Counted from the stretch's first letter, positions 3,001-41,790 are shown. The stretch is DNA of 64,000 nt from Verrucomicrobiaceae bacterium (GCA_027486655.1 JAIXOR010000072.1:1-64000); one strand, 5' to 3'. Translations and numbers: made by a program. The notes: a model not told the origin generated them from the letters alone.

Positions 3001-6000
3001 CTTTCCAAGACCTCGTATCTTTCGACGGCTGGCACGACCCTCAGGTTTGCCGATGCCTTCGGCCGCCGCATCGGCACGGTCTTTTCCGGAGGTGACATCC
3101 GCATCGCCGGCAACATCGTTGCGGAGTCGGGCTCCGCGCTCGACGTCTCGGGGACATCGGCCGTGCTCGATCTGGATCCATCCAGGGTTTCATCCGCCTT
3201 GCTCGACGGTGATCCGGGTTCGGTCCCGAACTCGGCCGGATTGATCACAGTGCGCAGCCGCATCGACAGCGATGCGGGCACCATCCGCATGGATGGCGCG
3301 CAGATGCTCTTCTCTGATGCCAAACTCACCGGCAAAACCGGCGGATCCTCCGCCACCGGGGGATCGCTTTCGATTTCGTCCGGTCGTTTCTATCAGGAGG
3401 GTCAGGTCAGGACCGGGGCGGATGTGAACCTGATCGTGAGGCAGTCCGGCGATGTGCTGACGGCCGGCGCAAACGGAGTGGGGCGGTCCGCATCGTTGAT
3501 CGGTGATATGGCGGATCCGGGTGCCGGATTCTTCGCTCTGGATCGCTTCAAGGAGGGTGGCTTCGCCTCGCTTTCGCTGGGTGGCAACTACGATGCCACC
3601 GCCTCGCCCATTCCCTTCGGCGGCAATGTCGATTTCCGCGGACCCATCGAGCTCGTGATGCCGGGAACGCTGCGCCTCGCGGCAGGTGGAGTCGTCCGCG
3701 CGGACGGGGTGGTTGACCTGACAAGCTCCTACCTGCACGTGGGTCAGGATTTCCGGGAACCCGCGCATCCGGATGATGTCTTCAACCCGTTCTACCGGGA
3801 TCCGGCCGCTCCTTCCGCGATCCATCAGTTCGCTCCCACCACCGGCACCGGCGAGTTGCGCTTTCATGCGGGGCTCATCGATGTGGGCACGCTCTCGCTT
3901 CAGAACATCGGCAAGGCCGCCATCTCCGCCATTCAGGGCGACATCCGTGGAAACGGCACGCTTTCGCTGGCAGGCGAACTGATTCTCGAAGCCGCGCGGG
4001 TGCACACCACCACACTTTCGGACTTCAGCATATTTGCCTATGACTCCTCATCCGGAGAGGGCCGCATCGAGGTCCGGAAGGCCGGTGAAACCCCGGCTCC
4101 GCTCTCGGCCGGTGGATCGATCGGGCTGTTCGCCTCATCGATCCAACAAGGCGGGGTGATCCACGCGCCGCTGGGCACCATCCGTCTCGGATGGAGTGGC
4201 GATCCCGCGGACGCGCCGGTCGATTCGATCGCCGGAGGAACCATCGCCTTCCCCATCACCCGCGAGGTGGTTCTGGGGGAGGACAGTCTCACATCGGTCT
4301 CCGCCAAGGGCTTGGAAGTGCCGTTCGGGATCAGTCCGGACGGCCTCACCTGGATCGATCCACGCGGCGTGAATGTCACGCTCTCCGGCCTGCCCCGCAA
4401 GTCGGTGAAACTGGATGGCGGATCCGTGGTGATGGCCGGATCCTCGGTGATCGATGTCCGTGGTGGCGGCGATCTTTTCTCCACGCGCTGGGTTCCGGGC
4501 AACGGTGGCAGCGTGGATCTGTTAGGGTCTCCCTCCGGAGAATGGGGTGGGGGAACCCGCTACGAGCCGGGCGACCTCGTCACCTACAAGGGCGAGACCT
4601 GGTCCGCCCGCGTCCGCCATGCGGGCCAAACCCCGGGTGCCAACGTCTATTGGACGAAGGTTGCTCCATCCTTTGCCATCGTTCCCACCTACGCGTCTTC
4701 CTACGCACCCCACAATCCGTACAACTCCGGGGCGAACTCCGCCGCACTCGCTGGCAATCCCGGTTATGTCGAGTCCTCGCTCAAGGCGGGTGATGTGATC
4801 ACGCTCGAAGACAGTTCGCTGCTCCCGGCCGGCACTTACACGCTGCTCCCGCGTGCCTATGCGAATCTCAAGGGGGCGCTGCTCGTCACCCTCGCCGATA
4901 CCGGCAGTGTGGGTTCCTTCACCACGCCGGAAGGCGCGGCCTATGTGTCGGGGTTTGTTTCCAACCGATTCAATCCGACCCCGGACGTCACCACGCTGCG
5001 TTCGCGTTTCGAAGTGGCGCCCGCTGCGGTGGTTGCCGGCCGGGCGTCCTATTCGATCTATCGTGCGGGCACCTTCATGCCGGCCGCGGGAGGAAAGCAG
5101 CCGCTGCCCGGGGATGCAGGGAATCTTTCGATCCACGGAGGGTCCGCACTGTCCCTGGAAGGGATCCTTCGCGCCCAGGCCGCCGGGCGAGGTGCGATGG
5201 TCGATGTCAGCACCTCGGCAAACCTCTATCTAACAGCCAATGGCGGGGCATCCACCGCGGGACTCGTTTTCCTGAATGCGAACGTGCTCAGCTCGTGGGG
5301 CGCCGAAAGCCTTCTGATCGGTGGTTTGAGAGTGGGCGAGGGCGAATCCGGCACGCGGGTGGACGTCAGGACCCCATCGATCACCGTGGATAACGCCGGT
5401 TCACCCCTCACGGGAAGCGACGTGATTCTTGCCGCGGACGGAAGCATCACCCTGGCAGAGGGCGCCCGCATCCTCTCTAACGGAGATTCGGGCGTCGCCT
5501 CCCCCGCACTGGAGTTGAGTGGAGACGGTTCGCTGGTCCGGGTGAGCGACGATCCCGCGGCCGCGCTGGTCCGCGACGGTGTGACCGGTTCAAGCGGAGC
5601 CTCATTGATCGTGGGGGCCTCGGCAGTCATTCGCGGCGGCTCGGTGACTCTGGATTCCAGCAAGGCGATGACTGTTTCTCCCGACGCGGTTCTCCGCGGT
5701 GAGGTGATCAACCTGTCGGCCGGGCAGATCAGCGTGGTGTTCGATGGAGCCACCGGGTTTCTCGATGGATCGGTGGTGGACAATCATCTCGCCCTCGCAG
5801 GCAGCACGCTCGAAAACCTGCGGGATGCCAGTGAGCTGCGTCTTTCGAGCTACAGCAGCATTGATTTCTACGGAGGAGGCAAGCTGGGTGGCGGTTCGCT
5901 GGAGTCGCTCACGCTCTCGACCGGGGCGATGCGCGGATTCCGGCAAGGCATCGGCGCGGTCACACTGGATGCCGCGGACGTGCGCTTCGAAAACCCGCTT

Positions 6001-34088: not shown

Positions 34089-36170
34089 TTAGAAACGGCG
34101 GGTCAGTGAGATCCGGAAGGTCCGCGGCTCCGCGGGATGCAGGTGGATGTCCTCCACGCCGCCCGCAGGCTCGCCGGGGAGTCGGGAGGCATAGAAATAC
34201 TCGATGTCGTTGTCGTCCCGTCCGAGCAGGTTCAGGCAATCCACGGCCACCTCCCAATCGTTTTTCCGGTAACCGACGCGCCCGTTGACCTGCCAGCTCG
34301 GGCGCGAATCCACGCTGCCATCCTCAATCAAGGGCCGCGGGCTGAAGTAGCGCGACCTCAAGCTGCCGAAAAACCCTTCCTCCTTCCCGATCGTGATGCC
34401 GGTGTCCAGCGTGAGCGGCACCGCACCGGGGATCTCGTCATCGGTCCCCACATCCAGCAGCCTTCCTTCGCTCACCGTGACCTCGTTGTCGACCATCAGC
34501 CAGTCGTTGGGCCGCCAGTAGGTGGACCACTCCACACCGAATCGCTCGGTGGCGGGGCCGGCTTCCGAGGTGCCCGCATCGCCGACGTAGAGCAGCTCGG
34601 AATCGCTGTGCAGGTAGAAGAATGCCAGCGTGCTCACCACGTCCTGCACGGCCTCGGTTCTTGCGCCGAGTTCGAAGCCGTAAGTGCGCACCAGCGGGTC
34701 CACTTTGTCCGCGGCGAGCCCGGTCGCCGGATCGATCGTGATGGTGGTCCCGCGAGCATCGTTCGAGTGGAATCCCATCCCGGCGTTGGCGTAGAACTCG
34801 GTGTCCGCCCATGGTCCGAAGATCAGGCTGAGCTTGGGTGAAACAATCGCATCCGTTTCATCGCCGGAGTTCGCCGGGTTGTCGCTCTCCACATCGAAAT
34901 AGAATCCGTCCGCCCGCAGTCCGGGCTCGATGCGGAACCACTCGTTCACCTGATGCCTCGCCGTGGCATACACTCCGGCCGTGGCTTCATAGACATCGTC
35001 CACCCGCGTGGTGCCGATCCGCTCCGTCGCGTTGGTCTGATAGAGGCCGATCCCATCGATGAGGTCGTGGCGTGTCTGGAAACCGATGGTCAAAAGGTTC
35101 TTGTCGCCATAGTCCCACTCGCGCCGGACTTCACCGCCGAAGAACCAGCGGTCTTCCTGTTGTTCGAACTGGTCGCCATTCACCGGATCGTTGAGGAAGT
35201 AGGTGAAGTTGGAAAACAGATCGAGATCGTACTTCCCGGCGTAAGCGTCTGCGTGGATCCGGCCGTTGGAAAGCTCGCGATCCCAGGCTCCCATCAGGCT
35301 GTAGCGGCTGGATTCACCGCGCACGGTGTCATCGATGTTTCCGAGGCGGTCGATGCCGCCGCTTTCGATCAGGCGCTTCGGGATTTGATCCGTGGAGTCC
35401 CACTCTCCATCATAGCCCATCGCAGTGAGGCGGAAGGTGTCCTGTCCGGATTGGTGGAAGTATTTGAGAAAACCGTTGATGCGTTGGGAATTCCCTTCCC
35501 GCTCCCAAGGACCGTCGTAGTCGTTGTATTCGAGCGCATAGGTGAGTCCGGATTTGTCGGCGGGAGGAGCGATGGCCTTTGATCCCGGGGTTGGCGCGCT
35601 CAGATCAATCGTGTCCGCGATCAGGCCTCGGAAGTAATGGTTTTCACCCATGCCCACCGATGCGATGCCCTGGGGCAGCAGGTCAAAGAAGCGGAACTTC
35701 GCGGCGCCGGCCGTGCTCAGGTCGCCGAGTTGGCCGAAGAACGGGCCTTTCCAATAGTCGAGTTGTTCAACGAGCTCCGGGATGATCGGATTGAGATCCG
35801 CATATCCCTGGCCGTGGGCGTGAGTCACGAAGTTCACCGGCTGTCCGTCCATGGAGACGGAAAAATCCGTGCCATGATCGAGATTGAAACCCCGGACGAA
35901 ATACTGGTTCGCCTTGCCGTCTCCGGAATGCTGGGTGATGACCACACCGGGCACCACTTCTAACAATTCGCCGCGTCGCAGGTAGGGGCGCTCGCCGAGT
36001 TCCCTGGAGTTGGCCTGTCCCTTGGAAGCGGTTGCCGCCTCGCCGATCAGGCTCTCGGCCTTGCCTGTGACCACAAGCGGGTCCAGCAAGTTGTCCGGTG
36101 CTTCTTCTGCGAGGGTCCGGGTGAGGAAAAGAAGAGGCGCGATGTGGTGCAGGGGAAGGGTTTTCTTCAT
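34089..36170 (-). CDS. TonB-dependent outer-membrane receptor
   Basis: 693 residues from the ATG at 36170, which starts a signal peptide (MKKTLPLHHIAPLLFLTRTLA); the upstream open frame is non-coding. A TonB-box/plug region follows: LLDPLVVTGKAES, then ELGERPYLRRGELLEVVPGVVITQHSG and YFVRGFNLDHGTDFSVSMDGQPVN. The plug includes an HAHGQGYADLNPIIPE motif that is unusually His-rich. The 22-strand barrel region ends in FRISLTRRF with terminal Phe. The ligand is not shown by sequence; gene neighbours hint at a metal. It is divergent from the CPMCK-motif gene and tail-to-head with the pst operon. Confidence 0.9.
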   Translation of the reverse strand: MKKTLPLHHIAPLLFLTRTLAEEAPDNLLDPLVVTGKAESLIGEAATASKGQANSRELGERPYLRRGELLEVVPGVVITQHSGDGKANQYFVRGFNLDHGTDFSVSMDGQPVNFVTHAHGQGYADLNPIIPELVEQLDYWKGPFFGQLGDLSTAGAAKFRFFDLLPQGIASVGMGENHYFRGLIADTIDLSAPTPGSKAIAPPADKSGLTYALEYNDYDGPWEREGNSQRINGFLKYFHQSGQDTFRLTAMGYDGEWDSTDQIPKRLIESGGIDRLGNIDDTVRGESSRYSLMGAWDRELSNGRIHADAYAGKYDLDLFSNFTYFLNDPVNGDQFEQQEDRWFFGGEVRREWDYGDKNLLTIGFQTRHDLIDGIGLYQTNATERIGTTRVDDVYEATAGVYATARHQVNEWFRIEPGLRADGFYFDVESDNPANSGDETDAIVSPKLSLIFGPWADTEFYANAGMGFHSNDARGTTITIDPATGLAADKVDPLVRTYGFELGARTEAVQDVVSTLAFFYLHSDSELLYVGDAGTSEAGPATERFGVEWSTYWRPNDWLMVDNEVTVSEGRLLDVGTDDEIPGAVPLTLDTGITIGKEEGFFGSLRSRYFSPRPLIEDGSVDSRPSWQVNGRVGYRKNDWEVAVDCLNLLGRDDNDIEYFYASRLPGEPAGGVEDIHLHPAEPRTFRISLTRRF

Positions 36171-36243
36171 CGGGGATGGGGATGCAGACCCGCAACTTAT
36201 CCGGGTCACACGTTCCTGCAAGTTGGGGATGGTGAATCTTTGA

Positions 36244-36693
36244 ATGAAGAATTTTCCCTTCTTATGGCTTGACCCGAATGCCGAGCCCGCGATGTTTCGC
36301 GCGATGCGCCAGCTGCTCAAACGCGTGAGCCGCTTCCTGCTGATCGGAACCCTCTTCGTTTCGCTCGGCGGGCACTTCGCGTTGTTGCAGACCTTCGCGT
36401 GGGGCACGATGCTCATGAGTTATTCGAAGAATGCCAGCTTCGGCGAGGCGGCTCGGAAAACCTTCGATGGCGAGCATCCCTGCCCGATGTGCAAACTGGT
36501 GAAACAGAGCAAGGAGCGGGAAAAAGAGAAGGTCCTGGTGAAGGCGGAAGCCAAACTGGACGTGGTGCTGCCCGTTCCTGTCCGCCTCAAGACCCCATGG
36601 GGCGCGCCGGCATCCGCCGATGTGCCCGACTATGCAGGCAGGCCCGTTTCCCTGCCCGGGGTGGTGCTTTTGCAGCCGCCCCGCCTGGCTTGA
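36244..36693 (+). CDS. Small single-pass membrane protein with HPCPMCK motif
   Basis: 149 residues, or 133 if the ATG at 36292 (MFRAMRQLLKRVSRF) is used. One transmembrane segment (FLLIGTLFVSLGGHFALLQTFAW) is followed by TFDGEHPCPMCKLVKQSKEREKEK, a Cys-x-x-Cys pair next to histidine, then a short basic/charged stretch and a hydrophobic-proline tail. Small membrane proteins with a C-P-[LM]-C signature occur beside metal-related TonB receptors in other bacteria (DUF2946-like); whether this one belongs to that family needs a profile search. It is divergent from the receptor gene, 73 bases apart. Confidence 0.7.
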   Translation: MKNFPFLWLDPNAEPAMFRAMRQLLKRVSRFLLIGTLFVSLGGHFALLQTFAWGTMLMSYSKNASFGEAARKTFDGEHPCPMCKLVKQSKEREKEKVLVKAEAKLDVVLPVPVRLKTPWGAPASADVPDYAGRPVSLPGVVLLQPPRLA

Positions 36694-36850
36694 TCGCATG
36701 ATGGATCCGCGCTCGCGAACCGGTTTGCCGCTCGATCGGTGAACCGCGCCTGCCGCGGAACATGAACCGCATGCCTGGGCTCTCTCCTTCCCGGAGATCA
36801 TGCCTGCGCGAGAACGTCCCGGCTCGATCCTTCGATGATCTTGGCTGCGG

Positions 36851-37549
36851 ATGTGCCCTCGCGGAATCCGATCCAGTCCGAATCCATTGAAACCTGCCAG
36901 AACCGGCCGGGGTTACTCCCTGGTGGAATTGTTGGTCGCGCTCCTGTTAGTCGCGATTCTTGCCTCGATTGTCGTACCTGTCGCCCGCTCGTTCATCTCC
37001 CGCGGACGATCCGCAAACTGTGCCTCGAACCTGCGTCAGATCGGCATGGCCGTGATGATGTATGCCTCGGACAATCACATGCGGCTGCCCGTCACCTCCC
37101 ACCAACGTTCGGCGGGGGGCAGGTCGTGGACGCTCACCCTCCAGCCTTATGCATCCGGCACCCTGAGTTTCAAGTGCCCTGCGGATCCGGACCGCAAGCG
37201 GGTCTATACCTACACCATCAATGACTATCTCACCCCCAATCCGGCGGGTGCGCCGGATATGGATTACTCGCGCCTTGCCTCCATTCCGAGGCCGGCGGAG
37301 ACCCTGATGTTTGGCGAGGCGACTGCGTCCTATCGGAGTATCGATCACTTTCACTTCACTGACTACCGCGGCGGAGTGATGCCGCCCGAGGTGTTCGAAT
37401 CCCAGGTGTCCACAAGCGCCCACTTGAAGCATGCGAACCACCTGTTTGCCGATGGTCACGTGGAAACCTTGTCCCGCCTCGAAGCCCTGCGCCGTGTGGC
37501 CGCACCGAATTCCGTCTTCATCGATCCGACCGCAGGCAAAACCCCGTGA
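36851..37549 (+). CDS. Type II pseudopilin-like (prepilin N-terminal methylation) protein
   Basis: 232 residues. After a short basic leader, the prepilin cleavage site GRG|YSLVELLVALLLVAILASIVVP is clear, with Glu at +5. The globular part has the cysteine-containing NLRQIGMAVMMYASDNHMRLP and a C-terminal H-x9-DG-like HANHLFADGHVETL, features of the DUF1559/H-x9-DG pseudopilin-like proteins abundant in Planctomycetes and Verrucomicrobia. Their role is unclear. It is followed 11 bases later by the histidine-rich secreted protein and is probably in the same transcript. Confidence 0.85.
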   Translation: MCPRGIRSSPNPLKPARTGRGYSLVELLVALLLVAILASIVVPVARSFISRGRSANCASNLRQIGMAVMMYASDNHMRLPVTSHQRSAGGRSWTLTLQPYASGTLSFKCPADPDRKRVYTYTINDYLTPNPAGAPDMDYSRLASIPRPAETLMFGEATASYRSIDHFHFTDYRGGVMPPEVFESQVSTSAHLKHANHLFADGHVETLSRLEALRRVAAPNSVFIDPTAGKTP

Positions 37550-37560
37550 AACCAATCCTC

Positions 37561-38484
37561 ATGAAAATCAAACCGATACTCCACTGCACCATCCTTCTGC
37601 TGGGGGCCTCCCTGGCAAGCGCCCACGACCACTTCGCCGCTGGAGTGGATGATCTCAACTCGAATGGCCAACCCGATCCGGGCGAGCCCTTGAAGCTGCA
37701 TGGTCCCGCCTTTTCCAACAAGGTGTTCCATCTGCTTCCCCGGCCGGCGGGTCAGCGGCCTGCCATCAAATGTGGTGGGCATTACGCCTTGGACGAGGGA
37801 GCCCGCACCTTGTTTCCCAACGATGGCTTCTCGTTCACCGCACTCTCGGACGGGCAGGTGGAGGCGGAGGAAGAAAACCACGCGCACACCGGGGCTTGGA
37901 TCTGGATGGAAATCCTTTCCGTGGATGGCCCTGCCGGCGCGGCCTTCGGCTTCTGGGAGGCGGGCCGCTCCACCGTGGCGGACACGCCGACGCGCTCGTT
38001 CATCACCGGTGCTCCCACCGGCGCATTCCGCTTCATCCTCAGCGGGGGAATCGATTCCGCCGATGAGGATCCCCAAGGGCACATTCATGGCCGGGCGTGG
38101 ACGGCGGACAAGCCCGGAATCTATCAGATCACGATGCGTCTCGTTGACCGGAGCACCAGCGGTCCCGGTGGTGGTCCCTGGCATGCCCCCGGCGCGCCCT
38201 TTGTATTCCGCTTTGAGGCGGGGCCCGATTTCCAACCCTCTCTCAGCCGCTCATCCGGCACATCCACCCTCACCTGGCCGAGCCGCATGGGCATTTGGGA
38301 GCCGTTTCAAACCGGCATCCTTTTCCGCGTCCTTCGCTCCACCGATCCGGCGGCAGGCTGGACGTCGATCGGTCAGGTCACCGGCACCACTGCCGCCACG
38401 ATTTCGTTCACCGATCCATCTCCTCCCGCAGGCCGGGCCTTTTACCGCCTGTCCTATGACTGGGCGGAACCCGTCCAGCCGTGA
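37561..38484 (+). CDS. Secreted histidine-rich protein with predicted N-terminal histidine
   Basis: 307 residues from the ATG at 37561 (a GTG at 37546 adds five). The signal peptide MKIKPILHCTILLLGASLASA would be cut before HDHFAAGVDDLNSNGQPDPGEP, making His the first mature residue. Further histidine groups (NHAHTGAW, GHIHGRAW, GPWHAPG) are spread across a beta-rich domain of about 200 residues. The end (about 85 residues, with LFRVLRSTDPAAGW and AFYRLSYDW) resembles the C-terminal beta module of other secreted proteins in the window. An N-terminal His with further His residues suggests copper or another divalent metal (inference from CopC/histidine-brace precedents). Confidence 0.75.
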   Translation: MKIKPILHCTILLLGASLASAHDHFAAGVDDLNSNGQPDPGEPLKLHGPAFSNKVFHLLPRPAGQRPAIKCGGHYALDEGARTLFPNDGFSFTALSDGQVEAEEENHAHTGAWIWMEILSVDGPAGAAFGFWEAGRSTVADTPTRSFITGAPTGAFRFILSGGIDSADEDPQGHIHGRAWTADKPGIYQITMRLVDRSTSGPGGGPWHAPGAPFVFRFEAGPDFQPSLSRSSGTSTLTWPSRMGIWEPFQTGILFRVLRSTDPAAGWTSIGQVTGTTAATISFTDPSPPAGRAFYRLSYDWAEPVQP

Positions 38485-38537
38485 ACCTTGAATCTCCCCC
38501 ATACCAACCAACCAGAAACCAAACCAAAGACACCCCC
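38485..38537 (+). repeat. C/A-rich 7-base periodic leader in front of the PEP-CTERM gene
   Basis: The 53-base spacer is nearly G-free in its last 40 bases. In sevens from the start codon it includes AACCAGA followed by AACCAAA. No Shine-Dalgarno site. Confidence 0.45.
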
Positions 38538-39362
38538 ATGAAGCCTATGAGAACCTCACTCTTCGCCATCGGAGCCATCGCCTTGGCGCCGTCCTTGCAA
38601 GCCCACACCAGCTACGGCGGCACCGCTCGGGACCTCGGGCCTGTCACGGGCTCGGTGAGCGGATCCATCAGCGGATTCAATCCTTTGTCTCCGTATTTCA
38701 AGACGATCAACACCGCACAGACGGTGACCTCCAACTTCGGCTGGGCGAATGCCACCGATGCGGACTTCGGCGATGCCCACCACATCAAGGCCTACCGCTT
38801 CACCCTCGCCGAAGCGGGCTGGGCAACCATTTCCGTGGCGGCCAATGCCTCGCGGGGCACCGGGACCGTTCCTTTCATGCCCGCGTTCTCGCTCTATACC
38901 GGTCTGCTTCACACCAGCGGTGGATCGGACTACGACACCTCCGGCATCACGCTGGCCTATCTGGCCACACTTGGAAACCCGCAGCCGCGCGAAGGTGCGT
39001 TCAATGCCCTTGGGGATTGGAAGATGGGCAACGACGCAAGTCTGCCCGATGCATTCGGAAACTATAACTTCAGCGAATTGAGCTCACTCACTTATGTGGC
39101 GAATGCGGCGGACGGCACTTCCACAAACTACGGCAGTGCACCCGGCATCCATGGCGACGGGCTGGCGAACGGCTTTGTCACCCGCTCGCTCTGGCTCACT
39201 CCGGGCACCTACTCGCTGATGGTGGGTGGGGCTGACATCGGCGGCTCGGATGTCTCCGGCACCTATGGCATCGATGTTTCGCTTTCGGTGATTCCCGAGC
39301 CCTCATCGATGGCTCTCACCGGTTTCGCCGGTCTCCTGCTGCTCCGGCGCAGGAGGGCTTGA
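38538..39362 (+). CDS. PEP-CTERM protein with predicted N-terminal histidine
   Basis: 274 residues from the ATG at 38538 (the GTG at 38481 would run through a non-coding leader). The signal peptide MKPMRTSLFAIGAIALAPSLQA is predicted to be cut before HTSYGGTARDLG, again exposing His. Further histidines occur in FGDAHHIKAYRF. The C-terminus carries the exosortase signal IPEPSSMALTGFAGLLLLRRRRA. It resembles the group of PEP-CTERM proteins encoded near metal uptake genes (some cyanobacterial ones are Zur-regulated), but I cannot confirm membership. It is last in the plus-strand set of four genes. Confidence 0.8.
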   Translation: MKPMRTSLFAIGAIALAPSLQAHTSYGGTARDLGPVTGSVSGSISGFNPLSPYFKTINTAQTVTSNFGWANATDADFGDAHHIKAYRFTLAEAGWATISVAANASRGTGTVPFMPAFSLYTGLLHTSGGSDYDTSGITLAYLATLGNPQPREGAFNALGDWKMGNDASLPDAFGNYNFSELSSLTYVANAADGTSTNYGSAPGIHGDGLANGFVTRSLWLTPGTYSLMVGGADIGGSDVSGTYGIDVSLSVIPEPSSMALTGFAGLLLLRRRRA

Positions 39363-39394: not shown

Positions 39395-41002
39395 TCATTC
39401 GTCCAGTTCCACCCTTACGCGGAAGAAGCGGCGTTCCGAATCGAGCGGGACGGAAAGGGTGATCGATTCAAATCCAGCCTCGGCAGGAGACAGGGCTGAG
39501 GTTGTAACGGTGGAGCCTGCGCGAGGCTCCTGGATCCATGAACCGCCAGCGGCGGACGGGCTGCTTTCGAACTGATAGAAAATCCCGCGTGCCGACGCGT
39601 CGCTGCGGCGGCGATGGGTGATGTGGAGTGTGTTGCCGACCCGTGTGCAGGAGGGAGCCAGCCGGTTTCCTGCGGAGGATAAGCCGGAAGCGGCCGCCGG
39701 ATCGCCGCCGACGGCATACTCGATGAGATTCGAAAGTCCGTCGTGATCGGGATCCTCGCCGGGGGCCGGGTTTGCCAGGCTGCTGCTCCACGAGGCATAG
39801 GACTCGACGAGGGCCAGGGTGAATGTGACGGGAACTTCGGTGGCTCCATCCCAGCGCAGACTTGCATGCACCTGAATCTCCGGAACATCCGGCAGCGAGT
39901 TCCACTCAAGCGTGAGTGGACTTTGCAAAGCGGCACCCAGGCCTCCGCGGCGGCAGCGCCAGGTGTTGCCTGCGAGTGCCTCTTGGATCATCGAACCGGC
40001 AATGCCACTCGGCGGGTGGGCGGATTGCAGGGTGAGCTGCACGTTGTGCGCATCCACGATGCCTGCATTGGTGATCGATAGCGGCACATTTCCAGGCATG
40101 AGCCTGCGCAAGGTCGGGCCGGTATGATGCTGGACTTGCAGGGTGGTGGCCTGCGGAATCGCACGGGTCATGTGAAAGCCCTTGCTCTCCATCATCGAGT
40201 CGAGCTGCGGCAGATAGGCCGGGATGAACGAAAGGTAGTTTCTGGAAACATTCGCCGGAAGGCCGCCCCAGCCCTGGGGATCCCGTCCGGAGGCGGTGCC
40301 GATGAGCGCGGGCATCCCTCCTTCCATCATGAAGGCCGGCGCTCCGGAGTCCCCTCCCTGATAGTCGCATTCGCGGGGCAGCCCCGCATCGTGATTGAAG
40401 TCGAACCAGGCAAAGCGCGTCGTGTCGAATCCCGGATCGTTCACCAGAGTGGTGAATCCACCGATGCTGGTGGTTCCAGCGCGCACGAAGCTGCCGAAAA
40501 CCACCGCCTGTCGGCCGCTGTAGGCACTCTCCGAAGCAAGATTGAGCACGGGGAAGGGCTTGATCCCGGTGGCGGCGTCCACCTCGCTGGCCAGGGTGCA
40601 GAGCATCAGATCGGTGGTCTGGCCCAGTGAGTTGATCACCGGTATCTGGCTTTCGATCGGATAGAGATGCTGTTGTCCGTCGGTCCCGAGAAATGCGATG
40701 TCCCAATCCGCGCCGAGGGGATAGTGGGTGGCGTAGACAAAATGCCGTGGCGAGACGAGGGCCATCTGGCGGGTCCAGTCGGTCGGATGCGCGGGCCAGC
40801 CGATGCCAAGGAAGAGATTGGCGGGAGCGTGGATGAAGTCCGGATTGGTGGCCGGCACCTGGGGATAGATCGGTGCGCCCGGGAAGTTGAGCAGCCGGTT
40901 GTCGAGAGTGGACGAGTAATCACGCACGTGCAGCGCGTCCAGCGGAGCGTTGGAAACAAGGAACAGCGCCAGCAGGGCGCGGATGGAGCAGGGGGGACGC
41001 AC
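39395..41002 (-). CDS. Secreted trypsin-like serine protease with C-terminal DPDHDG module
   Basis: 535 residues from the GTG at 41002, which opens a signal peptide (RPPCSIRALLALFLVSNAPLDA); the longer frame upstream is anti-sense noise over the neighbouring lipoprotein. The likely triad is His in HFVYATHYPLG, Asp in GQTTDLMLCTLA and Ser in YQGGDSGAPAFM, the chymotrypsin-fold order. After a middle region of beta-rich repeats comes the module DPDHDGLSNLIEYAVGGDP and about 90 residues ending FFRVRVELDE, as in the paralogue at 15480-16718. It is probably surface-attached or secreted. Confidence 0.85.
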   Translation of the reverse strand: MRPPCSIRALLALFLVSNAPLDALHVRDYSSTLDNRLLNFPGAPIYPQVPATNPDFIHAPANLFLGIGWPAHPTDWTRQMALVSPRHFVYATHYPLGADWDIAFLGTDGQQHLYPIESQIPVINSLGQTTDLMLCTLASEVDAATGIKPFPVLNLASESAYSGRQAVVFGSFVRAGTTSIGGFTTLVNDPGFDTTRFAWFDFNHDAGLPRECDYQGGDSGAPAFMMEGGMPALIGTASGRDPQGWGGLPANVSRNYLSFIPAYLPQLDSMMESKGFHMTRAIPQATTLQVQHHTGPTLRRLMPGNVPLSITNAGIVDAHNVQLTLQSAHPPSGIAGSMIQEALAGNTWRCRRGGLGAALQSPLTLEWNSLPDVPEIQVHASLRWDGATEVPVTFTLALVESYASWSSSLANPAPGEDPDHDGLSNLIEYAVGGDPAAASGLSSAGNRLAPSCTRVGNTLHITHRRRSDASARGIFYQFESSPSAAGGSWIQEPRAGSTVTTSALSPAEAGFESITLSVPLDSERRFFRVRVELDE

Positions 41003-41103
41003 TCGCGGTCGTCCTAGCCGGTTCTGCAGGAAATGGCGAGGATTTAGCCACGAATCACGGGTTTTACGGATTGATTCGTCCTTACGGGAGGATAGTCCGG
41101 AGC

Positions 41104-41790
41104 ATGTCGATTTTCCGGTGGCTGGTGGTTTCCTTGGGCGGAGTGCTTCTGGTTTCGTGCGCGGGATCGGCGGATCGGCAGGAAGCGCTGGCGATTGCGG
41201 ATCGATATACCCGCGTGGAGTGGATGCCGGAGGCCAGGCACGTGCGCCACGGGCAGGACTCGGCGGGCATTCCCGTGCACACACCGGATCGTTCGACGCC
41301 CTGGCCGGGAGACAAGCGCGGCTGGTGGAGGCCCGGGGTTCCCGCCAAGGGCATGCCCTATCAGTGGGGAGGCTTCGATACGCCGGAGTCCTTTCTTCAA
41401 AAACTCCGCGAGGGAAAAAAGGCGGGCGATATCGGCGATGCAGCGAAACGGAAACTCGGTGATGCCGGCACCAGCGCCGAATCCTGTGGCATCGATTGCT
41501 CGGGATTCGTTTCCCGCTGCTGGAAGCTGCCAAGGCCTTACTCCACCCGTGAACTGCCATCCATTTGCCAACCCTTGAAATCATGGAGCCACCTCAAGCC
41601 CGGCGACATTCTTCTCAACGACCGCCACGTGGTGCTCTTCGCCGGATGGCTCTCGGAAGGTGAAATCATCGCCGGTTACGAAGCCGGACCCAAACCGGTC
41701 TGGCGCGTGAACTCGTGCGGCATTCCCGTCGAGGTGCTGGTCAAGGACGGCTACGCCCCATGGCGCTATCGGCACATGGGCGTTTTGTGA
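41104..41790 (+). CDS. NlpC/P60-like cell-wall hydrolase lipoprotein
   Basis: 228 residues. The lipobox LLVSC follows a hydrophobic helix ([14 protein letters not shown]), so Cys19 should be lipidated. The catalytic core appears as [15 protein letters not shown] (nucleophile Cys in DCSGF) and [20 protein letters not shown] (His), as in NlpC/P60 peptidoglycan peptidases. A GGGAGG lies 12 bases before the start, one of the few Shine-Dalgarno-like sites here. Its stop codon sits at the breakpoint with the inverted hsdR fragment, so the true native 3' end could have been slightly altered. Confidence 0.85.

Follow-up and report, generated by a model that had tools for sequence, protein, structure and literature searches.

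ZepA (All3515) of Anabaena is a Zur-regulated, exported zinc-supplying protein with a histidine as its first mature residue (His1) and a PEP-CTERM end, and it has also been reported among the zinc genes of PVC bacteria including Luteolibacter (PMC10957091). Surface-anchored proteins that are repressed by zinc and Zur are likewise encoded in the troA anchored-repeat transporter cluster of C. diphtheriae (PMC6711530), and the 9-1-9 arrangement is one of the known forms of the Zur box (PMC6103462). For DUF1559 proteins, our literature search found no paper that connects them with zinc and Zur.

In the present study we analysed a locus within a stretch of 64,000 nucleotides from a Verrucomicrobiaceae bacterium (GCA_027486655.1 JAIXOR010000072.1:1-64000), hereafter the window. 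The first-pass annotation had proposed that a TonB receptor and four plus-strand genes form an envelope system for acquiring or buffering copper or zinc. We estimate at roughly one half the probability that the four plus-strand genes, as judged from sequence, make up an accessory module at the cell surface, of the zinc-limitation type.

The locus and its products

The ORF check of the window recovered all five ORFs of the first-pass annotation, and Pfam and NCBIfam matches supported the types predicted for the receptor, the pseudopilin and the PEP-CTERM protein. The features are as follows.

34089..36170, minus strand: TonB-dependent receptor, stop at 34089, probable start at 36170; Pfam Plug 1.8e-11; divergent neighbour
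36191..36223, plus strand: partial operator match, CGCAACTTATCCG-N14-GCAAGT, left halves only of the C23-ZigA-Znu tandem operator
36244..36693, plus strand: ORF of the CPMCK small membrane protein; probable start is the ATG at 36292, where the relatives' alignment begins
36851..37549, plus strand: pseudopilin of DUF1559 type; Pfam N_methyl, DUF1559/SBP_bac_10
37561..38484, plus strand: HDH secreted protein; signal peptide, predicted mature start HDHFAAG, GHIHGR motif, C-terminal FN3-like domain
38538..39362, plus strand: PEP-CTERM surface protein; predicted mature start HTSYGGTARDLG; TIGR02595, partial FxDxF-family match

A promoter scan at the cassette locus showed no sigma-70-like promoter. 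Convergent with the PEP-CTERM gene lies a 729-residue ORF (39395-41584) with no Pfam match; the N-terminal part of this longest ORF appears spurious.

The CPMCK protein, which belongs to no Pfam or NCBIfam family, has a single N-terminal hydrophobic helix, an invariant PCxxC and a C-terminal PPPR, and an alignment of ten sequences holds G26, G27, Q33, A36, W37, T57, F58, G60, P63, C64, C67 and P130 invariant. The Cys pair that had been read as a soft-metal motif is therefore indeed conserved among relatives. The PPPR end is retained even in variants without the Cys pair. The pseudopilin falls within the pilin-like families N_methyl (25.3 bits against a cut-off of 21.2) and IV_pilin_GFxxxE (24.2 against 16.3); its conserved motifs are HQR, DHFHF and a C-terminal H...DGHVE, with H84, D165, H166, H168, H191 and H203 invariant in an alignment of ten sequences. 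The PEP-CTERM protein scores 19.4 bits with TIGR02595 (cut-off 16), which places it in the PEP-CTERM class, and its C-terminal end reads VIPEPSSMALTGFAGLLLLRRRRA. Its AlphaFold2 model was too poor (pLDDT 53) and was set aside.

Relatives of the HDH protein were collected from the genus, from GTDB representatives and from the phylum. Among them His24 of the precursor (mature residue 3) is invariant and His22 (mature residue 1) is kept in nearly all, while GHxHxR, in the window version GHIHGR, is invariant as well; the histidines of the mature window protein include His1, His3, His153 and His155. With the choice-of-anchor M model (NF038134) the window protein scores 22.8 bits (7.9e-5), below the curated cut-off of 55. 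Eight of the 11 HDH relatives match choice_anch_M weakly (best E 7.9e-5); hhalign gives E = 0.0018 at a probability of 15% for this domain and no match for HDH against PEP-anchored choice_anch_M proteins.

AlphaFold2, run on 15 mature HDH sequences, yielded a model (pLDDT 79, pTM 0.77) with the N-terminal residues within an ordered strand, and a fold search of this model found residues 201-286, the last ~85, to be FN3-like. Matches in the PDB were generic Ig/FN3 matches only, none with a Foldseek E < 0.001, and outside the FN3-like end the search gave nothing specific. A likeness to CopC-type and histidine-brace proteins, as drawn in the first-pass annotation, would rest on the predicted N-terminal histidine; no CopC or LPMO-like chain is among the matches listed (Foldseek, VIA-align), in a comparison that tested the N-terminal domain little.

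Predicted N-terminal histidines

Cleavage sites were predicted by a hand-set (-3,-1) weight rule, a rule of thumb that serves as an approximation and is not SignalP. By this rule the top site lies directly before HDHFAAG and HTSYGG in the two window proteins, as the first-pass annotation had expected, and cleavage before histidine likewise ranks first for 9 of 11 HDH and 6 of 8 PEP-CTERM precursors. The first mature histidine is kept in all PEP-CTERM relatives read, the edges of some rows lying just inside that residue. The HDH and PEP-CTERM proteins are hence exported-type proteins with a conserved histidine at the predicted mature N-terminus, and the PEP-CTERM protein, described earlier as holding the system at the surface, is itself one of the two proteins that start with histidine.

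Among 203 other predicted secreted proteins of the same loci, His at +1 occurs in 11, of which three are unlabelled HDH or PEP-CTERM relatives, four form a family with the start HHG[QR][DE]F and two are TonB relatives. Once HDH and PEP-CTERM relatives, families of CPMCK operons and TonB relatives are set aside, the background is only ~1%, and therefore the N-terminal histidine of the HDH and PEP-CTERM proteins is beyond chance.

The HHG[QR][DE]F proteins (L102:12841-13881, L125:8598-9971, L126:5475-6374 and L222:15079-16000) are a third predicted secreted family of CPMCK operons, and their genes neighbour those of a beta-propeller/CCP_MauG-like protein and of PEP-CTERM proteins. The two TonB relatives (L189:5870-7936 and L190:5799-7862) have the predicted mature starts HSDSVLGM and HDGVLGAM. 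A far-reaching reading, which we regard as rather doubtful, would see here a metal-capture module that is widespread in Verrucomicrobia and new to the literature. Its secreted proteins, though unrelated, would all expose an unblocked histidine at the N-terminus (H-x-H, H-x-x-Y, HHG) as a common metal-binding device and be served by a dedicated pseudopilin and CPMCK protein.

Pseudopilins and PEP-CTERM proteins are surface-structure families, and the H-x9-DG pilin end is a general feature of pilins, so that the four genes might build a pseudopilus or PEP-CTERM matrix with no metal role at all. We consider this very improbable in view of the N-terminal histidine conserved in two unrelated product families, of PCxxC and GHxHGR, and of the adjacency to ZigA-Znu operons described below.

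Conservation across Verrucomicrobia

The order CPMCK, pseudopilin, HDH, PEP-CTERM, or a slight variant of it, recurs in ~15 other loci from several families, and the histidines are kept among relatives that are mostly 42-65% identical. The four genes lie on one strand in G002, G014, G053, G021, G042, G039, G357 and G387; in G420 the set is present and CPMCK was not detected. The family f9 (G182, G237, G349) has the order CPMCK, PEP-CTERM, pseudopilin, HDH, with the mature HDH starts HSHVDV and HDHIEV. The cassette was also found in metagenome-assembled genomes named Chthoniobacteraceae, Prosthecobacter (contig cut) and Terrimicrobiaceae, the last with two HDH genes that each have a PEP-CTERM-like end. 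Tandem HDH genes with PEP-CTERM-like ends on both occur at L035:2115-2990 and 3052-3786, where a separate PEP-CTERM gene was not detected. No plasmid relatives of the cassette were found. The flanking genes differ between genomes (glyS, rsuA-like, argS and others); therefore the four-gene set is conserved by itself, and its members are passed on together.

The joint conservation that the first-pass annotation had proposed to check for the five proteins accordingly stands for the four plus-strand genes, which recur together, and fails for the receptor, which is absent beside most copies. The receptor plug holds THAHGQGYADLN, and HAHGQGY is present in the window receptor and in 17/17 relatives in which this stretch was read. 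A receptor flanks the cassette only in the window and, as last gene, in two of the three f9 genomes (L113, L114), and its presence in the genus shows no correlation with the cassette (2/8 vs 18/65, Fisher p = 1). We therefore take the receptor as a loosely tied neighbour with a history of CPMCK-type partnership and have dropped it as a fixed member. In the genus, genes orthologous to the window receptor gene stand between one for a CPMCK variant that has lost the Cys pair and one for a HupE/UreJ protein, in a single operon. This conserved operon, with PPPR in the CPMCK variant and HAHGQGY in the receptor, is seen at L184:5103-8349 and similarly at L175, L179, L180, L182, L187 and L188.

Zinc operons and their operator

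C23, ZnuA, COG0523 proteins, an ABC ATPase and an ABC-3 permease are encoded in the ZigA operons of the genus. In two genomes, G040 and G016, the ZigA operon ends in a pseudopilin, followed in G040 by a choice_anch_M protein, and the same pseudopilin/choice_anch_M pair stands after ZigA on contig C125 of G053. A pseudopilin located after ZigA in a Znu operon shares 31% identity (1e-22) with that of the window. In G005, CPMCK is clustered with ZigA (608.8 bits vs 600), a TonB receptor, a pseudopilin and a choice_anch_M PEP-CTERM protein; in G014 the cassette and ZigA-pilin-choice_anch_M meet tail to tail; and in G053 the cassette and C23 are divergent, with two boxes between them that have PWM scores of 25.4 and 18.9 (0/300 shuffles). 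That contigs C125 and C46 of G053 adjoin inside C23 is plausible; their ends show no exact overlap, and we have not adopted the join. In the window genome no ZigA was found, and the ZnuABC genes lie at another place than the cassette. The genome encodes three Fur-family proteins, which are candidates for Zur.

C23 (L173:7065-7676, L095:12891-13484, L038:1-265) is a protein of ~200 residues with no Pfam or NCBIfam match, encoded by the first gene of ZigA-Znu operons. The C23 promoters share the 9-1-9 palindrome AACGCAAGT-N-ACTTGCGTT, often in tandem, and in G060 the exact operator stands upstream of C23-COG0523-WD40-ZnuA-ATPase-ABC3-COG0523-ZigA. At 36191-36223 the window agrees with the left halves of the tandem operator in 18/18 specified bases (0 mismatches; 0.04 matches are expected per window at <=3 mismatches), and elsewhere in the genus this 18-base pattern is exact only in G005, G053 and G060, at zinc genes. 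In the stretch that the first-pass annotation had proposed to check for a Zur/Fur/CueR-like site, left halves of this operator are present; the right halves are lost, and as a palindrome the site reaches only PWM 5.0 (p ~0.12). We regard this putative operator remnant as a suggestive link to zinc. A PWM scan showed no significant zinc box upstream of most other cassettes, nor upstream of TonB operons.

The last result also bears on a reading in which CPMCK would accompany TonB and redox operons in general, the cassette would serve another substrate or several metals, and its adjacency to zinc genes in two genomes would be incidental. Of 99 related genomes, 73 have CPMCK, and in 36 further loci a TonB receptor gene was the first or second gene after CPMCK 24 times; several of these loci have PepSY_TM, cytochrome c, SCO1/SenC or HMA genes nearby, and both zinc box and zinc neighbours are missing at most cassettes. 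We nevertheless judge this reading quite unlikely, given that the pair of pseudopilin and secreted protein recurs in Znu-ZigA operons and that clusters of histidines are conserved in three of the products.

Copper handling deserves to be weighed at the same point. ATCUN-like N-terminal H-x-H, and His1 of CopC and histidine-brace proteins, bind Cu(II), and N-terminal H-x-H would suit Cu(II) as well as Zn(II). The HDH protein might thus bind Cu(II) through its free N-terminal H-x-H, which nearly all relatives have, with CPMCK as the Cu(I)-thiol partner; a CusF_Ec gene directly after HDH in G237 (L112) points the same way, as do the SCO1/SenC, cytochrome c or HMA genes that adjoin CPMCK in L104, L106, L118 and L123. 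Elsewhere, too, CPMCK stands first in SCO1/cytochrome c and HMA operons. Set against this are the closest gene pairs (pseudopilin and choice_anch_M), which belong to ZigA-Znu operons with a shared operator, and the fold comparison given above, with its little-tested N-terminal domain. Moreover, the zinc exoprotein ZepA also begins with His1 (PMC10957091), and therefore an N-terminal histidine is not specific to copper. On balance we hold a copper function to be unlikely.

Discussion

Zinc is favoured because pseudopilin relatives, in pairs with choice-of-anchor-M proteins, end ZnuABC-ZigA operons with a palindromic operator. The earlier proposal of an envelope system for acquiring or buffering copper or zinc agrees with the N-terminal histidines, the Cys pair and the metal-gene context; this context probably supports zinc better than copper, and the receptor is not a constant part. 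The cassette would then probably be a variant of envelope metal acquisition. In such a zinc-limitation module, a shortage of zinc would induce the cassette genes, and the HDH protein (through its N-terminal H-x-H and GHxHGR) and the PEP-CTERM protein would be the zinc-binding components outside the inner membrane. The pseudopilin may help to position or move these two proteins in the envelope, CPMCK, with its PCxxC, could act as metal or thiol partner at the inner membrane, and inward transport of the metal might fall to a TonB receptor, which in the window would be the divergent one.

Extracellular zinc-supplying proteins, exemplified by ZepA, have been described only recently, and the cassette would represent a second such set of proteins. 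Furthermore, the accompanying genes for a pseudopilin and a membrane protein, joined in some loci by one for a TonB receptor, make partners of surface metal capture testable. The palindrome AACGCAAGT-N-ACTTGCGTT is a candidate Zur box for the phylum, none of this form having been found in the literature searched, and the CPMCK family may be a useful marker for operons of metal uptake and of TonB receptors.

Among known systems, ZepA resembles the cassette proteins in signal peptide, predicted mature His1 and PEP-CTERM end. In their mature form, HDH and the PEP-CTERM protein lack the ZepA motif H-X2-9-H-[FY]-H (PMC10957091), which sets them apart by motif description, so that HDH was rejected as a ZepA member; the cassette, in addition, brings a pseudopilin and a CPMCK protein. 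The troA cluster of C. diphtheriae likewise combines metal ABC transporter genes with zinc-regulated surface-anchored proteins of unknown function (PMC6711530), but these are Gram-positive surface proteins, and pseudopilin, CPMCK and PEP-CTERM proteins are not reported there. CopC and histidine-brace proteins share with the HDH and PEP-CTERM proteins the N-terminal histidine predicted after cleavage, whereas no sequence match was found, and no such fold is among the Foldseek and VIA-align matches listed. With the choice-of-anchor M domains (NF038134, TIGR03773, TIGR03769) the likeness is one of alignment, HDH aligning to the HxH-containing C-terminal half, and of gene order, the pseudopilin preceding the secreted protein as in ZigA-Znu operons; the domain, however, has HxHxxWxF where HDH, scoring under the cut-off, has GHxHGR. 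Closest in context are the ZigA (COG0523)-ZnuABC operons of the same genus, which have pseudopilin relatives at their ends and a conserved operator, and from which the window cassette differs in carrying neither transporter nor GTPase genes.
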